NCBI GenBank assembly: GCA_037349315.1
Contig: JBAIAC010000024.1
Coordinates: forward strand, 32,847,501-32,911,500
Origin: Chelydra serpentina
Taxonomy: Eukaryota; Chordata; Testudines; Chelydridae
DNA length: 64,000 nt
Reading direction: 5' to 3'
Below are positions 4,257 to 53,446 of the stretch, piece by piece. Position 1 is the stretch's first letter. Each line of letters opens with the position of its first letter. The notes below the pieces were generated by a model that saw nothing but the letters and a program-made list of their open reading frames with translations, had not been told where the DNA came from and did not search any database. A program made the position numbers and the translations under genes.

Positions 4257-4331
4257 GAAGGGCAGTGCTCTACAGTGACCTAAAGTGGAGTACCTATAGG
4301 AACACTCCTTGAAGAAGATAAACTTACTCAC

Positions 4332-4646
4332 CTTGTGCAGTAACTGAGGTTTTTTGAGATGGTTGTCCCCGTGAGTGCTCCACTACTCACCCTCCTCCCC
4401 TCTACTTCTGAGTTTCCTGCTAGGGACTCTGTGATGGAGAAGGAACTGATAGGTGGGTGGGGGGAGGTTGGTTGCACAGCGCTATGTAACCTCCAGAGGT
4501 GGCATGAGATGGGGATAGCGCAGGTGCAACCCAACCAGGCACTGCTACTGACATTCTCCGGTTGCAGGCACAGGGACACAGATTCACCTAAAGCGGAGCA
4601 CCTATGGGGACAACCATCTCCAAGAACCTCAGTTACTGCACAGAGT
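4332..4646. repeat. DIRS terminal inverted complementary region
   Basis: Segment 4332-4384 (gtgcagtaactgaggttttt...) is the reverse complement, with scattered changes, of segment 4590-4646 (...aacctcagttactgcac). Such paired complementary stretches near the right end are typical of DIRS elements, where they template circular replication intermediates. I place the right end of the element at about 4650. Confidence 0.65.
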
Positions 4647-4657
4647 CAGAGTAACAG

Positions 4658-4790
4658 GTTTCAGAGTAGCAGCCATGTTAGAACAAGAGTATTCGTAAAA
4701 AGAACAAGAGTACCTGTGGCACCTTAGAGACTAACAAATTTATTTCAGCATAAGCTTTCGTAGGCTATAGCCCACTTCATCGGATGCATA
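4658..4790 (-). repeat. Fold-back family element, truncated to one arm plus tail
   Basis: On the minus strand this ends with the tail ctaacatggctgctactctg, preceded by gcttatgctgaaataaat and ggtgccacaggtactcttgt. The tail and arm wording match the intact fold-back element at 16427-16629 (agcttatgctcc..., ggtgccacagg, ctaacacggctacccctctg). Only one arm remains. The tail end is intact and truncation falls at the loop (cggatgcat), as in 5' truncation of a retroelement. It abuts the DIRS right end. Confidence 0.65.
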
Positions 4791-9850: not shown

Positions 9851-9852
9851 TT

Positions 9853-9930
9853 GGGCCCTGATCCTGAACCTATAGAAGTCAATAGGAATCTTTCCATTGA
9901 CTTCACAGTGTGCTTTTGTTCAGGCCTTTT
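9853..9930. repeat. Palindromic 'ggccctgat' MITE-like fragment
   Basis: It opens with gggccctgatcctgaac and closes with gttcaggcct. The middle holds gaagtcaat and attgacttc in inverted order. The same phrases recur at 10078-10166, 24232-24330 and 25242-25372, so this is a dispersed palindromic family rather than chance. Confidence 0.55.
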
Positions 9931-16414: not shown

Positions 16415-16641
16415 CCTCTTTGGTAAGAAGCGACAAAGAGTCCTGTGGCACCTTATAGACTAACAGATGTATTGGAGCATAAGCTTTCATGGGTGAATAC
16501 CCACTTCTTCAGATGCACTTATTCACCCACGAAAGCTTATGCTCCAATACATCTGTTAGTCTATAAGGTGCCACAGGACTCTTTGTCGCTTCTACAAATC
16601 CAGACTAACACGGCTACCCCTCTGATACTCCTCTTTGGTAA
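16415..16641 (+). mobile_element. Intact fold-back element with 12-bp target duplication
   Basis: Two 73-bp arms, 16427-16499 and 16520-16592, are reverse complements at 72 of 73 positions and are separated by a 20-bp loop. A 37-bp asymmetric tail follows (16593-16629: agactaacacggctacccct...). The whole is flanked by an exact 12-bp direct repeat, cctctttggtaa, at 16415-16426 and 16630-16641. There is no coding potential. The arm similarity suggests recent insertion or selection for the hairpin. A 12-bp duplication is longer than those made by hAT (8), Harbinger (3) or mariner/Tigger (2) transposases. Confidence 0.85.
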
Positions 16642-17039: not shown

Positions 17040-19436
17040 AAACGCTAAGTCTTCAAGTACAATACTTTCATTAAAGAGCTGAATAAAGATCCGGTCTGAA
17101 AGGCAACAGTGTGATAAAATGTGTGAATTCCTGAGGGCTTGCAGAAACAGGCACAGATTCTGTGCTAGATTCTGCAGTGCATGGCTGGAAACCAAGTGAT
17201 GGTTGATGAGCTGCGTGTTTTTAGAACCAGAGCTGGGTGTTTTTTCAAAACTGGTTGGTGATCTATTTAACGAGCTTTGTTTGGCAGCTCTCTGTCAGGG
17301 TTGGGAGCACAGCTGGAGGTTTGTGAGTTATTGTTAATGAGGGCAGACCTGAATCCGGTATAACAGTGAATCCACTGAAAAGGAAGACTGCAAACAGGCA
17401 ATTCCCTGAGGGAGTTCAGAGAGGCAATATAAAATAATAGAATGGTTCAGCAGTTTTATTAAAAAAGAATAAAGTCTTGAGTTCTCACTACTCTAGGGTA
17501 TTTCGCCAAAATCTCCAGTGCAGTGCAACCAGTGATTTAATTGAGACTAGTGCTAAAATCCCTGGCAACCTTATTGTAGACAATGAAGCTAATTAAACCC
17601 ACGTTTATGAATTTTTTTGGTCACCCCAAATCTGTGTTGTTTGGCAAAAAAAGAGGCTTTGCTTTAAAACCTTCATCCAGCTATTCCAGTGACCACTGGG
17701 CATGGATCTTTACCTTCCCAAAGGCATTCTCTCTTCTGCCTCCTAAGCAGCCACTCTTTGAACTCTCTCAAGGAGTAGAAACTATACAGCCACATGCCAC
17801 AGATAGCAAACAGCCAAAATACACAGTTAACCAAACAATTTGTTCCCATAAAGTATTCAGTGAACATTTTGTGAATAACAAACATGTTAATAAAAAAAAT
17901 TCAGTACTGGTTAGCGAATAATTCACAAACAGGTAATAAGGATTCAGTTTGTGGGAGAATTTATTCACACTGAATAATTCAATCTGCTCTAGCTAACTAT
18001 ACACTAACTTCTGTGAGCGGATATGAAAATTTGAAGTCTGGGACTTTATATTCAGTAATGTCAAGAAAATTCTGCACTCCAAGTGGCATCTTAAATCGCG
18101 TCTTTGGCTGTAGTTTCTCAAAATAATGCACAGCGTCAAGTTCATATGTTGTTTAGCTTTCTCTGTTTTTTTTTAAAGTTTGTTCAAAAATAAATAAATT
18201 AAGAGTTATAGTTTCATCTTAATGTACAATGATTTATATGTGCAACTCCCTGTGCATCAAAATGAGAATAAACCCCCTGGTGTCTGAAACTATGTACAGT
18301 TGCATCAGAAAGCTTTTTATTTCTGTTAATCTACTCTTGTTGAAAGAATAGATTTAATTATCTGAAGAGATTGCAATCAGAATAGATCTTAAGGTAAAAG
18401 AAAAGTGCCTGGCAATATGAAATTTTAAAAGCATTACTATTAATTTTTATCCTATTACAGAAAAGGTTTTTTTTTAAATAAAAAAAAATATCACTCTTCT
18501 TATGATAACCTTATTTAAGATTAATTATGCATCTAGAACTCTCAGTGAAGGATGCAACATTCAAGGAAACCATGTTGAATTTCAGTAATTTAAAAAGTCC
18601 AGTGATATTAAAATGAAATGGGACCCTCAAGCCAACTTTGTGGGGGGCAATTATGACACATTACTGTATGAATCACACACTGTGATTAAACTGATAGGAG
18701 GTACTCAACATTAGCACTTGCTTTGAAAGGGGCACTGATTACCATTTGTACTATGCATTTTGGTAATCAGAAATCATTACAGAAAATACTACATTAACTG
18801 AACAAATATCCCCCTAGCTGCACTAAATTTACAGATTTCCTCCCTCCCCCCCACACTAACGTTATGCATGTAAGTAAATAAAATTACGTTTTGCTACATG
18901 ATATTAGCGCTTCATCAGGTACTTAGCTCACCAAATCAGTGTTCTGTCAGAGAAAAGCAGGACCATTGTATTACAGAACAAATACTTTAAAATACCTCCT
19001 ATCTAATTTTTTAACTTTGATTTTCAAATTGGCTGCAACCACACTTTATAAATCATCAGTCACTTGTGATTTGTAAAAATAGCCATATGAGAGGATAAAA
19101 CTAACAGGAAGTGGCAACATCGACTTTAGAACTCCTGACTTATTCCTACTAAATTGCTGTTGATCAGGTTTCAGGAATTCATTCTGTGGAGGAATCTTCA
19201 GGGTCTATCTTCTTGTAAAACATTAATGGGCATGTATTCTGCAAGAACTAAATGTTCTCACACATTTTAACACCTAGAACTATGGGTAATTTAGGGGATT
19301 TTGACCTAACTATTGTACTAAATACTAATTTTACTGCAGCATTTTTGTCAATGACCTCCATATGTATTTTTACACACAAGCACGTGCGCACACAAACAAC
19401 CTTTTTTTTATTCAAGTCTTTGCACAATCACATTAT
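17040..19436. other. Unannotated intergenic sequence
   Basis: AT-rich sequence with poly-T and poly-A runs (for example about 18160 and 18465-18490). I see no supported gene or named repeat. Confidence 0.45.
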
Positions 19437-24330: not shown

Positions 24331-25241
24331 ATATCAAATCCAAAACCAGCAGTAAAAATCATAATGGAGCAAAGTTGGAGAAATACAATTTGAAATAAAT
24401 ACATTGGGCTTGATTTTGAATAAGGTTAGACATGCAATTGTGACTAATTTGTGTGCCTAATTATCAAGACTATGTGCAAATCAAGTAATTATGCAGGCAA
24501 ATAACCATAATTAGTTTTGTGTAATTATTCAATTACCATGTACAATGACTGTAACTGGGTGTGCAAATTAACCATGCAATCGTGCATGCTTGCTCAGCAG
24601 ACACTTTTGTGCCTACTCTTTTTAAAAATCACATTCATCTGAGTTTTTTCTGATTTCCCTTCCACTGCATGAGTGTTCTTATTACGAGAGTTTTCTACTA
24701 GCAATGCTATTGCTATAGGTGAAGACTCAAAAGCACTATCATTCTGTTCCCTCCATGTTCTGGTGGTTTTTAACTTTCCTCCCCAAAATACCTTTTATGC
24801 TGACAGACATTTCTCATGTTTATTCTTCTCATAGATTCAATTTTTGTTTAATTGAGTGGGGAACTAAGGTCTATTGAAATATGGTCAGTCATTTTTCAAA
24901 CATGAACAATTTTTTAACCATGTAAGAATATATCAAAATGCCTCTTTGTGCTCAGATAATACAATGATTTACTGTTAAAACATCAAACTTTACATGTGCA
25001 TAGTCTTCAGTGAAGAAAGTATGCTGAACTACATTACAGAACTTCTTAAATAAAGCTAATAAAGAAATCTACTGCACTGGACATGCCTACCATGTTGTGG
25101 GTTCAATCTGCAAAAACACTCCATATTGAATTAACTCTGCTCCAATTGAAGTTAGTGGCAAAACTCCCATTGGCTTCACTAAATCAGAGTTAAGCCACTG
25201 AACACTTTTGCAAGTCTTATGTTATTTGCCTTACTATGTGA

Positions 25242-30952: not shown

Positions 30953-31405
30953 AGGTGACCATATGTCCCGTTTTCACTGGGACAATCCTTTTTTAAGCCC
31001 TGTCCCGGCCATCCCAATTTTTTTGGCAAAAGTGGGCATTTGTCCTGTTTGTTCTTGCTGACGTGAATGGCAAGAGCAAATGGGACAAATGCCCACTTTT
31101 GTCAAAAAAGTGGGATACCCTGCAGGGTGGGCCAGCGGCGATTCCCACTCCAAGCAGGGAAGGGAGAGGCAGGGCTTGGGTGAGCAGCAACACCAGCCCT
31201 AGCCCTGTTTAGGGGAGCAAACAGCTCAGGCCAGCCCCATTTGGGGGAGGACTGGGGGCTCAGGTGAGTGAATTGGGCCAGCCCTGCACCGGGAGTGGGT
31301 GGGGAGGGAGGCAAGTGGCTTGGGCCAGCCCATGCAGCAGTGGGTTGGGGGCTTGGGCTAGCCCCACTCAGTGTCTCATTTGCCCTTTGGGAAATATGGC
31401 CACCC
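30953..31405. mobile_element. MITE with gtgacca ends and internal 32-bp hairpin
   Basis: The ends are taggtgaccatatgtccc at about 30952 and gggaaatatggccaccca ending near 31406. They are imperfect inverted repeats like those of the smaller element at 44641-44763. Flanks atagact and attagac are near-identical and may be a decayed target duplication. Inside, the segment starting ggcaaaagtgggcatttgtc (about 31024) is complementary to the segment ending gacaaatgcccacttttgtc (about 31113), giving a roughly 32-bp stem. The rest is GC-rich and non-coding. Confidence 0.65.
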
Positions 31406-39649: not shown

Positions 39650-40950
39650 GGTGACCACTCAGTGCTATGATGCACGTTGATTGCTGTTAGGCTCTGCGCG
39701 ATCAGGGCCTTGGTTTGTATTGCTGTTTCTATAAGTATCATTTTACCTGGATACTGTTGTAGAATACTTCCATTAAAAAAGGGAAAATTAACATCTAAAG
39801 AATTTGGTTGATTAGTAAGTGCACAAAAAGGTACCACAGAGGAATAAATGTTCTTACCAAAATGAAGAAAATAGTTAGAAGTTTTGCTGGAAGCAAATGC
39901 CATTTAGTTGGTTTTATTATAAACAACTTAAAGTATATGTTCATTTTTCAGCATGGAAATTGCTCTTTAGTAAGATCCTTCACTAATAGTATGAAAATGT
40001 GTTTATAAAGCCTGTAAGTGGTTTTTATAATAAGATTTTTTTTAAATGGGTTGGAATATTGAATTAAGTTCTGTAGAAATGCTTGAGGTGTAGTTGTAAC
40101 TAACTTACAAATGATACATTATAAACACTATCAGAAAAATTAATTTTAGTTTCCATCAAAGTAGTCTTGTATGGCTTTGAAGTGGTAAGCATGGGGTACT
40201 TTATATTGCAATTTATATGGTCTTGAATACTTAGGGACAGATTCTATGCTTGTGGTCTGGCTGTTTTGTATTGCAGTACCAGCATGGCCTGGCTCTAAAG
40301 ATGGATGAATAGCATGACCAGGACAACTTATAGCTTGCTGCTCTTGGGCAGCCATGGCACAGGGGAACTGGCCTGCACTGAGCTGCTGCAGGATCAGGGG
40401 ACTGCAAAAGTGAGCTTTAAGATACCTTTGCATACGTTTTCTGCATTTTTGGTTGTAGCTGAGTATCTTGCCTTTTAAAATTATAACCCTGAAGAATGTT
40501 TAATCAGTGATACCTGAGGACATAATGCACACCAGATGAATCAAATCAAAACCTGATCCATTTTGTGTGTAAATCAAAAAGGTTACTGGGACAGCGGGTA
40601 GCATGCAATCGTTAACATAATGACACTAGTCTGCTGCAGTATTTTAGACTCAGTAATCAATACTTGGAATTTTTTACATTTATTTGCCCTCCAATTTAGG
40701 GGCAGATTCTGCTAAACTGGTTCACACTCAGATGGCTTTGGATATGGTATGTTCTTTCCCATCTGATCCAAGGCCGGTTGTGCCTCCAAAATACCAGCTA
40801 AATAGATACAAGATCTTCATAGCCTCAGCTGGGTCTTAAAGATCTCTTGTAATATTAGTTCATATTTTTGACCCCATGTGTTGTGGTGATTCTGATCTGG
40901 AGAACCTCAGAGCATATATGTAATAATCTACTTCTTCCATTGATCGGTTG
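39650..40950. other. Unannotated intergenic sequence
   Basis: I see no supported feature. A minus-strand open frame at 40146-40433 has no recognisable domain. Confidence 0.4.
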
Positions 40951-40971
40951 TGGGTTTTTTACTCACAAAAG

Positions 40972-41036
40972 TTTATGCCCAAATAAATTTGTTAGTCTTT
41001 AAGGTGCCACCAGACTCCTCGTTGTTTTTACTGACC
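40972..41036 (+). repeat. Fold-back family arm fragment
   Basis: The text cacaaaagtttatgcccaaa, ttgttagtctttaaggtgcc and accagactcctcgttgtttt matches one arm of the fold-back family (compare 4658-4790 and 16520-16592). The diagnostic tail is missing. Confidence 0.55.
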
Positions 41037-41042
41037 GGTTGT

Positions 41043-46604: not shown

Positions 46605-46864
46605 TAGTACTGTTCAGAAAGACAAGATGGGTGAGGTAATATCTTTTATTGGACCAACTTCTGTTGATGAGTGAGACAAGCTTTAGAGCTTACACAGAGC
46701 ACTTCTTCAAGGACCTGAAGACTAGCTCTGTGTAAGCTCAAAAGCTTGTCTCTCTCACCAACAGAAGTTGGTCCAATAAAAGATATTACCTCACTTACCT
46801 TGTCTCTCTGGTATCGTGGGATTGACATGGCTACACCAACTCTGCATGTAGTATTGTTCGAGAA
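46605..46864 (+). mobile_element. Fold-back element with about 15-bp target duplication
   Basis: Arms 46621-46700 and 46725-46804 are 80-bp reverse complements with 74 of 80 matches and a 24-bp loop. An asymmetric tail follows to 46848 and includes ttgacatggctacaccaact, matching the tail of the 16427 element (ctaacacggctacccctctg). The flanks tagtactgttcagaa (46605-46619) and tagtattgttcgagaa (46849-46864) differ by one substitution and one insertion. The arms are unrelated in sequence to those at 16427, so only the tail is shared. Confidence 0.8.
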
Positions 46865-52849: not shown

Positions 52850-53446
52850 GCTTTTGTAAAGGGAAATCATGCCTCAACAACATATTAGAATTCTTTGAGG
52901 GCGGTCAACAAGCATGTGGACAAGGGTGAACCAGTGGGTATAGTGTACTTGGACTTTCAGAAAGTCTTTGACAAAGTCCCTCCCCAAAGGCTCTTAAGCA
53001 AACTAAGCAGTCATTAGATAAGAGGGAAGGTCCTCGCATGGATCAGTAACTGGCTGAAAGATGGGAAACAAAGGGTAGGAACAAATGGTCAGTTTTCAGA
53101 CTGGAGAGAGGTAAATAGTGGTGTCCCGGAGAGATCCGTACTGGGACCAGTGCTGGTCAAGGTATTTGTAAATGATCTGGAAAAAGGGGTAAACAGTGAG
53201 GTGGCAAAGTTTGCAGATGATATAAAATTACTTAAAATAGTTAAGTCCAAAGCAGATTGTGAAGAGTTACAAAGGGATCTCACAAAACTGGGAGATTGGG
53301 CAACAAAATGGCCAATGAAATTCAGTGTTGATAAATGCAAAGAAATACATATTGGAAAACATAATCCCAACTATACATACAAAATGATGGGGTCTAAAAT
53401 TAGCTGTTACCACTCAAGAAAGAGCTCTTGGAGTCATTGTGATTAG
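52850..53446 (+). pseudogene. CR1 reverse transcriptase fragment
   Basis: Segments in shifting frames include a VYLDFQKVFDKVP-like stretch (about 52940-52985) and, in the frame 53150-53446, FADDIKLLKIVKSKADCEEL, then DLTKLGDWATKWPMKFSVDK. FADD is the RT catalytic box and is intact here, but upstream stops and frameshifts inactivate the domain. Confidence 0.85.

Follow-up and report, generated by a model that had tools for sequence, protein, structure and literature searches.

How does an insertion come to consist of two arms folded back on one another, with a one-sided tail and a single duplication of the target around the pair? The question is raised by a genuine fold-back (E1) at positions 16427-16629 of the window, the whole 64-kb stretch of DNA analyzed here. 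The repeat finder and alignment of the arms place the arms at 16427-16499 (E1L, minus strand) and 16520-16592 (E1R, plus strand), matching at 72 of 73 positions (at the sole mismatch one arm reads CG and its partner TG), around a loop of 20 nucleotides (nt). E1R continues into a 37-nt tail on the plus strand (16593-16629), which contains AACACGGCTAC, and the unit lies between CCTCTTTGGTAA at 16415-16426 and an exact copy of it at 16630-16641. A second genuine fold-back (E2) occupies 46620-46848, with arms matching at 81 of 90 positions over 46620-46709 (E2L, minus strand) and 46716-46805 (E2R, plus strand); the repeat finder gives arms of 95 nt at 89% and a loop of 6 nt. Its 43-nt tail (46806-46848, plus strand) contains GACATGGCTAC, and its flanking duplications are TAGTACTGTTCAGAA (15 nt, 46605-46619) and TAGTATTGTTCGAGAA (16 nt, 46849-46864). 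Among the 11 inverted pairs listed in the window (minimum arm length 30 nt, maximum separation 1000 bases), these two have the only arms of at least 70 nt (2/11). The preliminary description had thus correctly recognized two fold-backs with asymmetric tails and flanking duplications, although it gave the E2 arms as 74/80; its loop length of 20 to 24 nt holds for E1 but not for E2.

Two single copies accompany the fold-backs. E3 (4658-4787, minus strand), placed by BLAST, end mapping and a ribozyme descriptor, combines a tail ending near 4658 with a complete hammerhead ribozyme at 4748-4787; position 4787 is the edge of the ribozyme rather than a mapped head end. The earlier reading of E3 as a tailed single copy stands, but the claimed truncation at the loop does not, the ribozyme core and both stems being whole. 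E4 (40952-41031, plus strand), the fourth copy, which had been misplaced at 40972-41036, is tail-less, begins within ribozyme stem II and stops at an inner site 57 nt past the predicted cut; its ends abut a duplication, TGATCGGTTGT (40941-40951) and TGACCGGTTGT (41032-41042), that matches at 10 of 11 positions. E1, E3 and E4 form one family (E1-E3, E = 3e-16; E1-E4, E = 3e-13, by BLAST) and E2 another, and the arms of E1 and E2 give no BLAST match to each other at E ≤ 1, in agreement with the earlier view that they are unrelated. The shared tail motif RACAYGGCTRC was likewise found, exactly at three places in the window (E1, E2 and E3) and with one mismatch at six more, but the single family proposed from it divides into two. 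Both families resemble what we take to be repeats widespread among turtles and other reptiles, and we take the window to be of reptile origin. Pattern scans of viral contigs and prokaryote genomes found no relatives.

Other repeats in the window fold as well. Positions 31014-31114 form a hairpin with 45-nt arms (87% complementary) and an 11-nt loop, which has no match to the two-stem hammerhead descriptor described below, matches the Rfam model mir-548 below its gathering score and looks like a palindromic MITE. Two hairpin stretches (9852-9929 and 25125-25199) match mir-1677 below its gathering score and are probably copies of one palindromic repeat. An inverted pair with 58-nt arms (4327-4384 and 4592-4649; 84%), 207 nt apart, adjoins E3 and has no ribozyme descriptor match.

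Read from the center outwards, all four arms of E1 and E2 begin at or within a minimal hammerhead, in the order stem I, a CUGANGA-type core, the stem II hairpin, GAAAGCUU and the other side of stem I. The hammerhead of E1L (16477-16516, minus strand) is complete, and that of E2R lies at 46711-46751 on the plus strand, with GAAAGCTT replaced by AAAAGCTT. Stem I has 4/4 pairs in E1L, E3 and E2R and 2/4 in E2L; stem II has 6/6 in E1L and E3 and 4/5 in both arms of E2, all pairs being counted on hand-split strings (MAFFT misaligned these short hammerheads). The head of E2L is damaged or cut at the junction, and E1R and E4 are truncated, beginning inside stem II. A two-stem descriptor, composed after the copies had been inspected, matches exactly E2R, E1L and E3 in the window and gave one match in 200 dinucleotide shuffles. 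A looser descriptor gave three matches, of which 19166-19201 was taken as a chance match with no other sign of these elements. Rfam searches of the whole window returned 22 matches up to E = 10, none of them a hammerhead (over E1 only mir-2002, at E = 1), and searches of two small stretches returned 0 and 2 matches, again with no hammerhead among them. The hammerhead numbering and the position of the cut in these copies are assumed rather than computed.

The fold-backs are a known kind of structure, the inverted pseudo-LTRs of Penelope-like elements (PLEs), and the head-to-head arrangement is present in both E1 and E2. Minimal hammerheads without helix III are described from Penelope pseudo-LTRs in the consulted parts of PMC6155905 and PMC7761336, where it is noted that they may cleave as dimers. 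Since the ribozyme, the tail on one arm, the inverted orientation and the variable duplications are all published PLE features, the Penelope reading is supported, and we consider it very probable that E1 and E2 were inserted by Penelope-like retrotransposon machinery. The preliminary description had favored target-primed retrotransposition, with Penelope-like or LINE machinery as a possible driver. Target-primed reverse transcription of the Penelope type is supported by the ribozymes at the arm heads, the tail on one arm, truncation on the head side and duplications of 11, 12 and 15/16 nt, all in agreement with the relevant sections of PMC3846280 and PMC11167929; the sample for truncation side and duplication lengths is four copies, of which E3 lacks a clear duplication. 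A cut-and-paste MITE or a Foldback-type DNA transposon would also have long inverted arms and a short loop. However, the tail is one-sided, the ends are not symmetric TIRs, the duplications are not of one length, single-arm relatives are truncated at the head and the arms contain ribozymes, all of which makes such an origin highly improbable. An autonomous EN+ PLE with the same ends would encode a telomerase-like reverse transcriptase and a GIY-YIG endonuclease. The four copies are too short for an open reading frame (ORF), and Pfam searches of 10 of the 47 ORFs listed for the window found no GIY-YIG domain and no Penelope gene; the sole family matched was RVT_1, outside these copies. The ORF concerned (53018-53446; E = 4e-10) is probably part of a LINE and has no relation to the fold-backs.

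The flanking duplications were compared with random pairs of 26-nt stretches from the window. The score of the exact 12-bp duplication of E1 was matched by 3 of 5000 such pairs and that of the 15/16-nt duplication of E2, which has one mismatch and one gap, by 10 of 5000. For E4 (11 nt) the figure was 60 of 5000, a count that does not require the match to abut the element ends. E3 has no convincing duplication, its best match being gapped and its score equaled by 104 of 5000 pairs. The PLE preference for AT-rich targets and the ATT cleavage motif are not evident at E1 (7/12 A/T) or E4 (6/11 A/T on the left), neither of which has ATT, in a sample of three sites. A single duplication surrounds each fold-back as one unit, and this bears on whether the arms could represent two separate insertions that came to lie side by side in opposite orientation by chance, or a later inversion or duplication of one copy. 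The window does hold single copies of the same family (E3 and E4), but a duplication around the pair on both occasions, together with head-to-head geometry arising twice, leaves this explanation with very little probability.

The arms stop at two distinct places. Inner ends lie 54 (E1L), 58 (E2L) and 57 (E4) nt past the predicted cut and are all tail-less, the E2 value having a margin of about 5 nt owing to its tail-like flank. Outer ends lie 91 (E1R), 101 (E2R) and 94 to 95 (E3) nt past it and are all tailed. Inner and outer 3' ends are 37 to 43 nt apart, each fold-back has one arm stopping at each, and the tail is confined to a single arm per fold-back. With E4, a plain single copy, stopping at the inner site, its end agreeing with the tail-less end of E1 within 3 nt, the inner site looks to be a regular 3' terminus and not an artifact of the fold-back process. 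There are only two fold-backs, and if the site were chosen freely on each strand, it would be unremarkable for both to be mixed.

An alternative hypothesis is that the fold-backs belong to a fixed non-autonomous family, in which transcription of a fold-back locus would yield a hairpin RNA that is copied whole; the preliminary description had favored a hairpin RNA as the mobile form. The presence of two fold-backs of similar size within 64 kb would suit it. Against it, E1 and E2 differ both in family and in head junction, E3 and E4, the remaining copies found, are each single, the tail-less arm of E1 has a head that is absent from the tailed arm, and E4 uses the tail-less end. We therefore regard a mobile hairpin as improbable, and the earlier preference for it over its alternatives is not supported.

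Self-priming is another route to a fold-back: one cDNA or antisense RNA template would fold back at the palindromic ribozyme and be copied into the second arm. The near-identity of the E1 arms (72/73) fits one arm having been copied from the other as well as it fits two copies from one source, the E2 junction is almost palindromic with its 6-nt loop, and palindromes at inverted junctions are reported from rotifers in PMC3846280, whose Discussion, in the part consulted, favors an antisense template that primes itself but does not settle the question. The E1 heads, however, are unequal: the tail-less arm includes the entire hammerhead, whereas the tailed arm begins within stem II. A copy of the tailed arm would be without the extra head and a copy of the tail-less arm would be without the tail, so neither arm is a simple copy of the other, which argues against simple snap-back and would require trimming to be added to plain copying. 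The agreement of the tail-less end with the end of E4 also counts against self-priming, which we judge unlikely, if less so than a mobile hairpin.

We instead propose that E1 and E2 each comprise two truncated copies of the pseudo-LTR, whose heads, bearing a minimal hammerhead, are joined to each other. Both strands of the target would be cut in a staggered manner, and each new 3' end would prime reverse transcription of Penelope RNA, the templates being either two separate RNAs or a single tandem RNA with two pseudo-LTRs. The cDNA begun at the outer site would give the tailed arm and the cDNA begun at the inner site the tail-less arm; both would halt within or close to the hammerhead before being joined end to end. 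The tail would then correspond to the interval separating the two sites at which reverse transcription begins. What the sequence itself shows is where the arms end, that one side alone has a tail, that one duplication encloses the unit and that the heads of E1 are unequal; from two fold-backs and two single copies we infer the two cDNAs and their joining. We lean slightly towards this two-cDNA mechanism, in which each target strand receives one cDNA and each start site supplies one, and the explanation as a whole (Penelope machinery, head-to-head pseudo-LTR copies and two cDNAs) strikes us as probable on balance. Four copies are too few to establish a mechanism; they make it a specific hypothesis.

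Pairing between arm and tail might help to present the start sites. In E1, GUUAGUCU, 16 nt past the cut, pairs at 8/8 positions with AGACUAAC, beside the tail motif ACGGCUAC, and in E2 the unrelated arm stretch GUUGGUCC, 19 nt past the cut, pairs at 8/8 (5 Watson-Crick, 3 G-U) with GGAUUGAC at the same place in the tail. Among 20000 random arms, 97 (E1) and 488 (E2) did as well anywhere in the arm, and 33 (E1) and 105 (E2) at offsets 11 to 23. In E3 the stem has 6/8 pairs, equaled by 17189 of 20000 random arms, and so lends no support. The best fold of E2 pairs the arm stretch of this stem elsewhere, and RNA folding from cut to tail end found no unusual stability (z = 0.00, -0.58 and 0.71, the E3 stretch being shifted by about 2 nt).

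We speculate, more tentatively than for the two-cDNA mechanism itself, that Penelope inserts by two converging target-primed reverse transcriptions, each cut strand priming one of them and each choosing between two start sites on the RNA. Inverted pseudo-LTRs with a one-sided tail would then be the scars of mixed choices, the self-complementary hammerhead, pairing two RNAs, would mark where the cDNAs meet, and the arm-tail stem may present the start sites. The parts of PMC3846280 and PMC11167929 considered here leave open how Penelope insertion is completed and why the ends are often inverted with a one-sided tail. No literature linking two-site activity to inverted pseudo-LTRs was found in a partial coverage of the field, and we claim no priority. 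Should fold-backs and single copies prove to end at the same pair of start sites across the genome, the in vitro activity, with its two sites and both strands, would explain a signature seen in many genomes. The hypothesis is specific and can be tested on existing genome sequences rich in these elements.

Among known systems, the Penelope elements of Adineta vaga are described in the consulted portion of PMC3846280 as having pseudo-LTRs (pLTRs) that, like those in the window, are inverted, mostly head to head, with an optional tail of 31 bp on one of them, short target duplications and palindromes at the junctions. Published PLE tails are 30 to 40 bp long, and that of E2 (43 nt) is slightly longer. 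Unlike the copies in the window, which are ends only, most A. vaga copies have an ORF between or beside the pLTRs; their duplications are 8 to 10 bp compared with 11 to 16 here, and the word hammerhead occurs nowhere in that paper. The minimal type I hammerheads of PLEs described in PMC6155905 and PMC7761336 (in part) share with ours the core, stems I and II and the lack of a closed helix III, as well as a self-complementary AAGCTT that could permit action as a dimer; in contrast, the ribozymes in the window are predicted from sequence and are not matched by the Rfam models. Metazoan non-LTR retrozymes, according to the sections of PMC7761336 considered, are likewise short, ORF-less carriers of type I hammerheads and have been suggested to be mobilized by PLEs. 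Retrozymes are direct tandem repeats, whereas E1 and E2 are inverted pairs with a tail; their hammerheads are inverted, and the three descriptor matches include no tandem unit. A mechanistic likeness is to PAc, the Poseidon element of the green anole, whose protein is reported in the consulted text of PMC11167929 to cleave and extend both target strands. Two neighboring sites inside the RNA, downstream of the hammerhead, serve as starts for its copying, and the genomic tail is the stretch between them, the same arrangement as proposed for the window. The PAc hammerhead cuts at +26 and initiation is commonest at +111 to +118, some 85 to 92 nt apart, compared with 91 to 101 nt from cut to outer end here; by distance this corresponds to the outer end, although +111 to +118 may be either start site. 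PAc differs from the copies in the window in being an active autonomous element, and that text, which uses the word inverted once, of a blocking nucleotide, does not discuss inverted pLTRs, the arrangement in which E1 and E2 would preserve one arm from each of two such sites.
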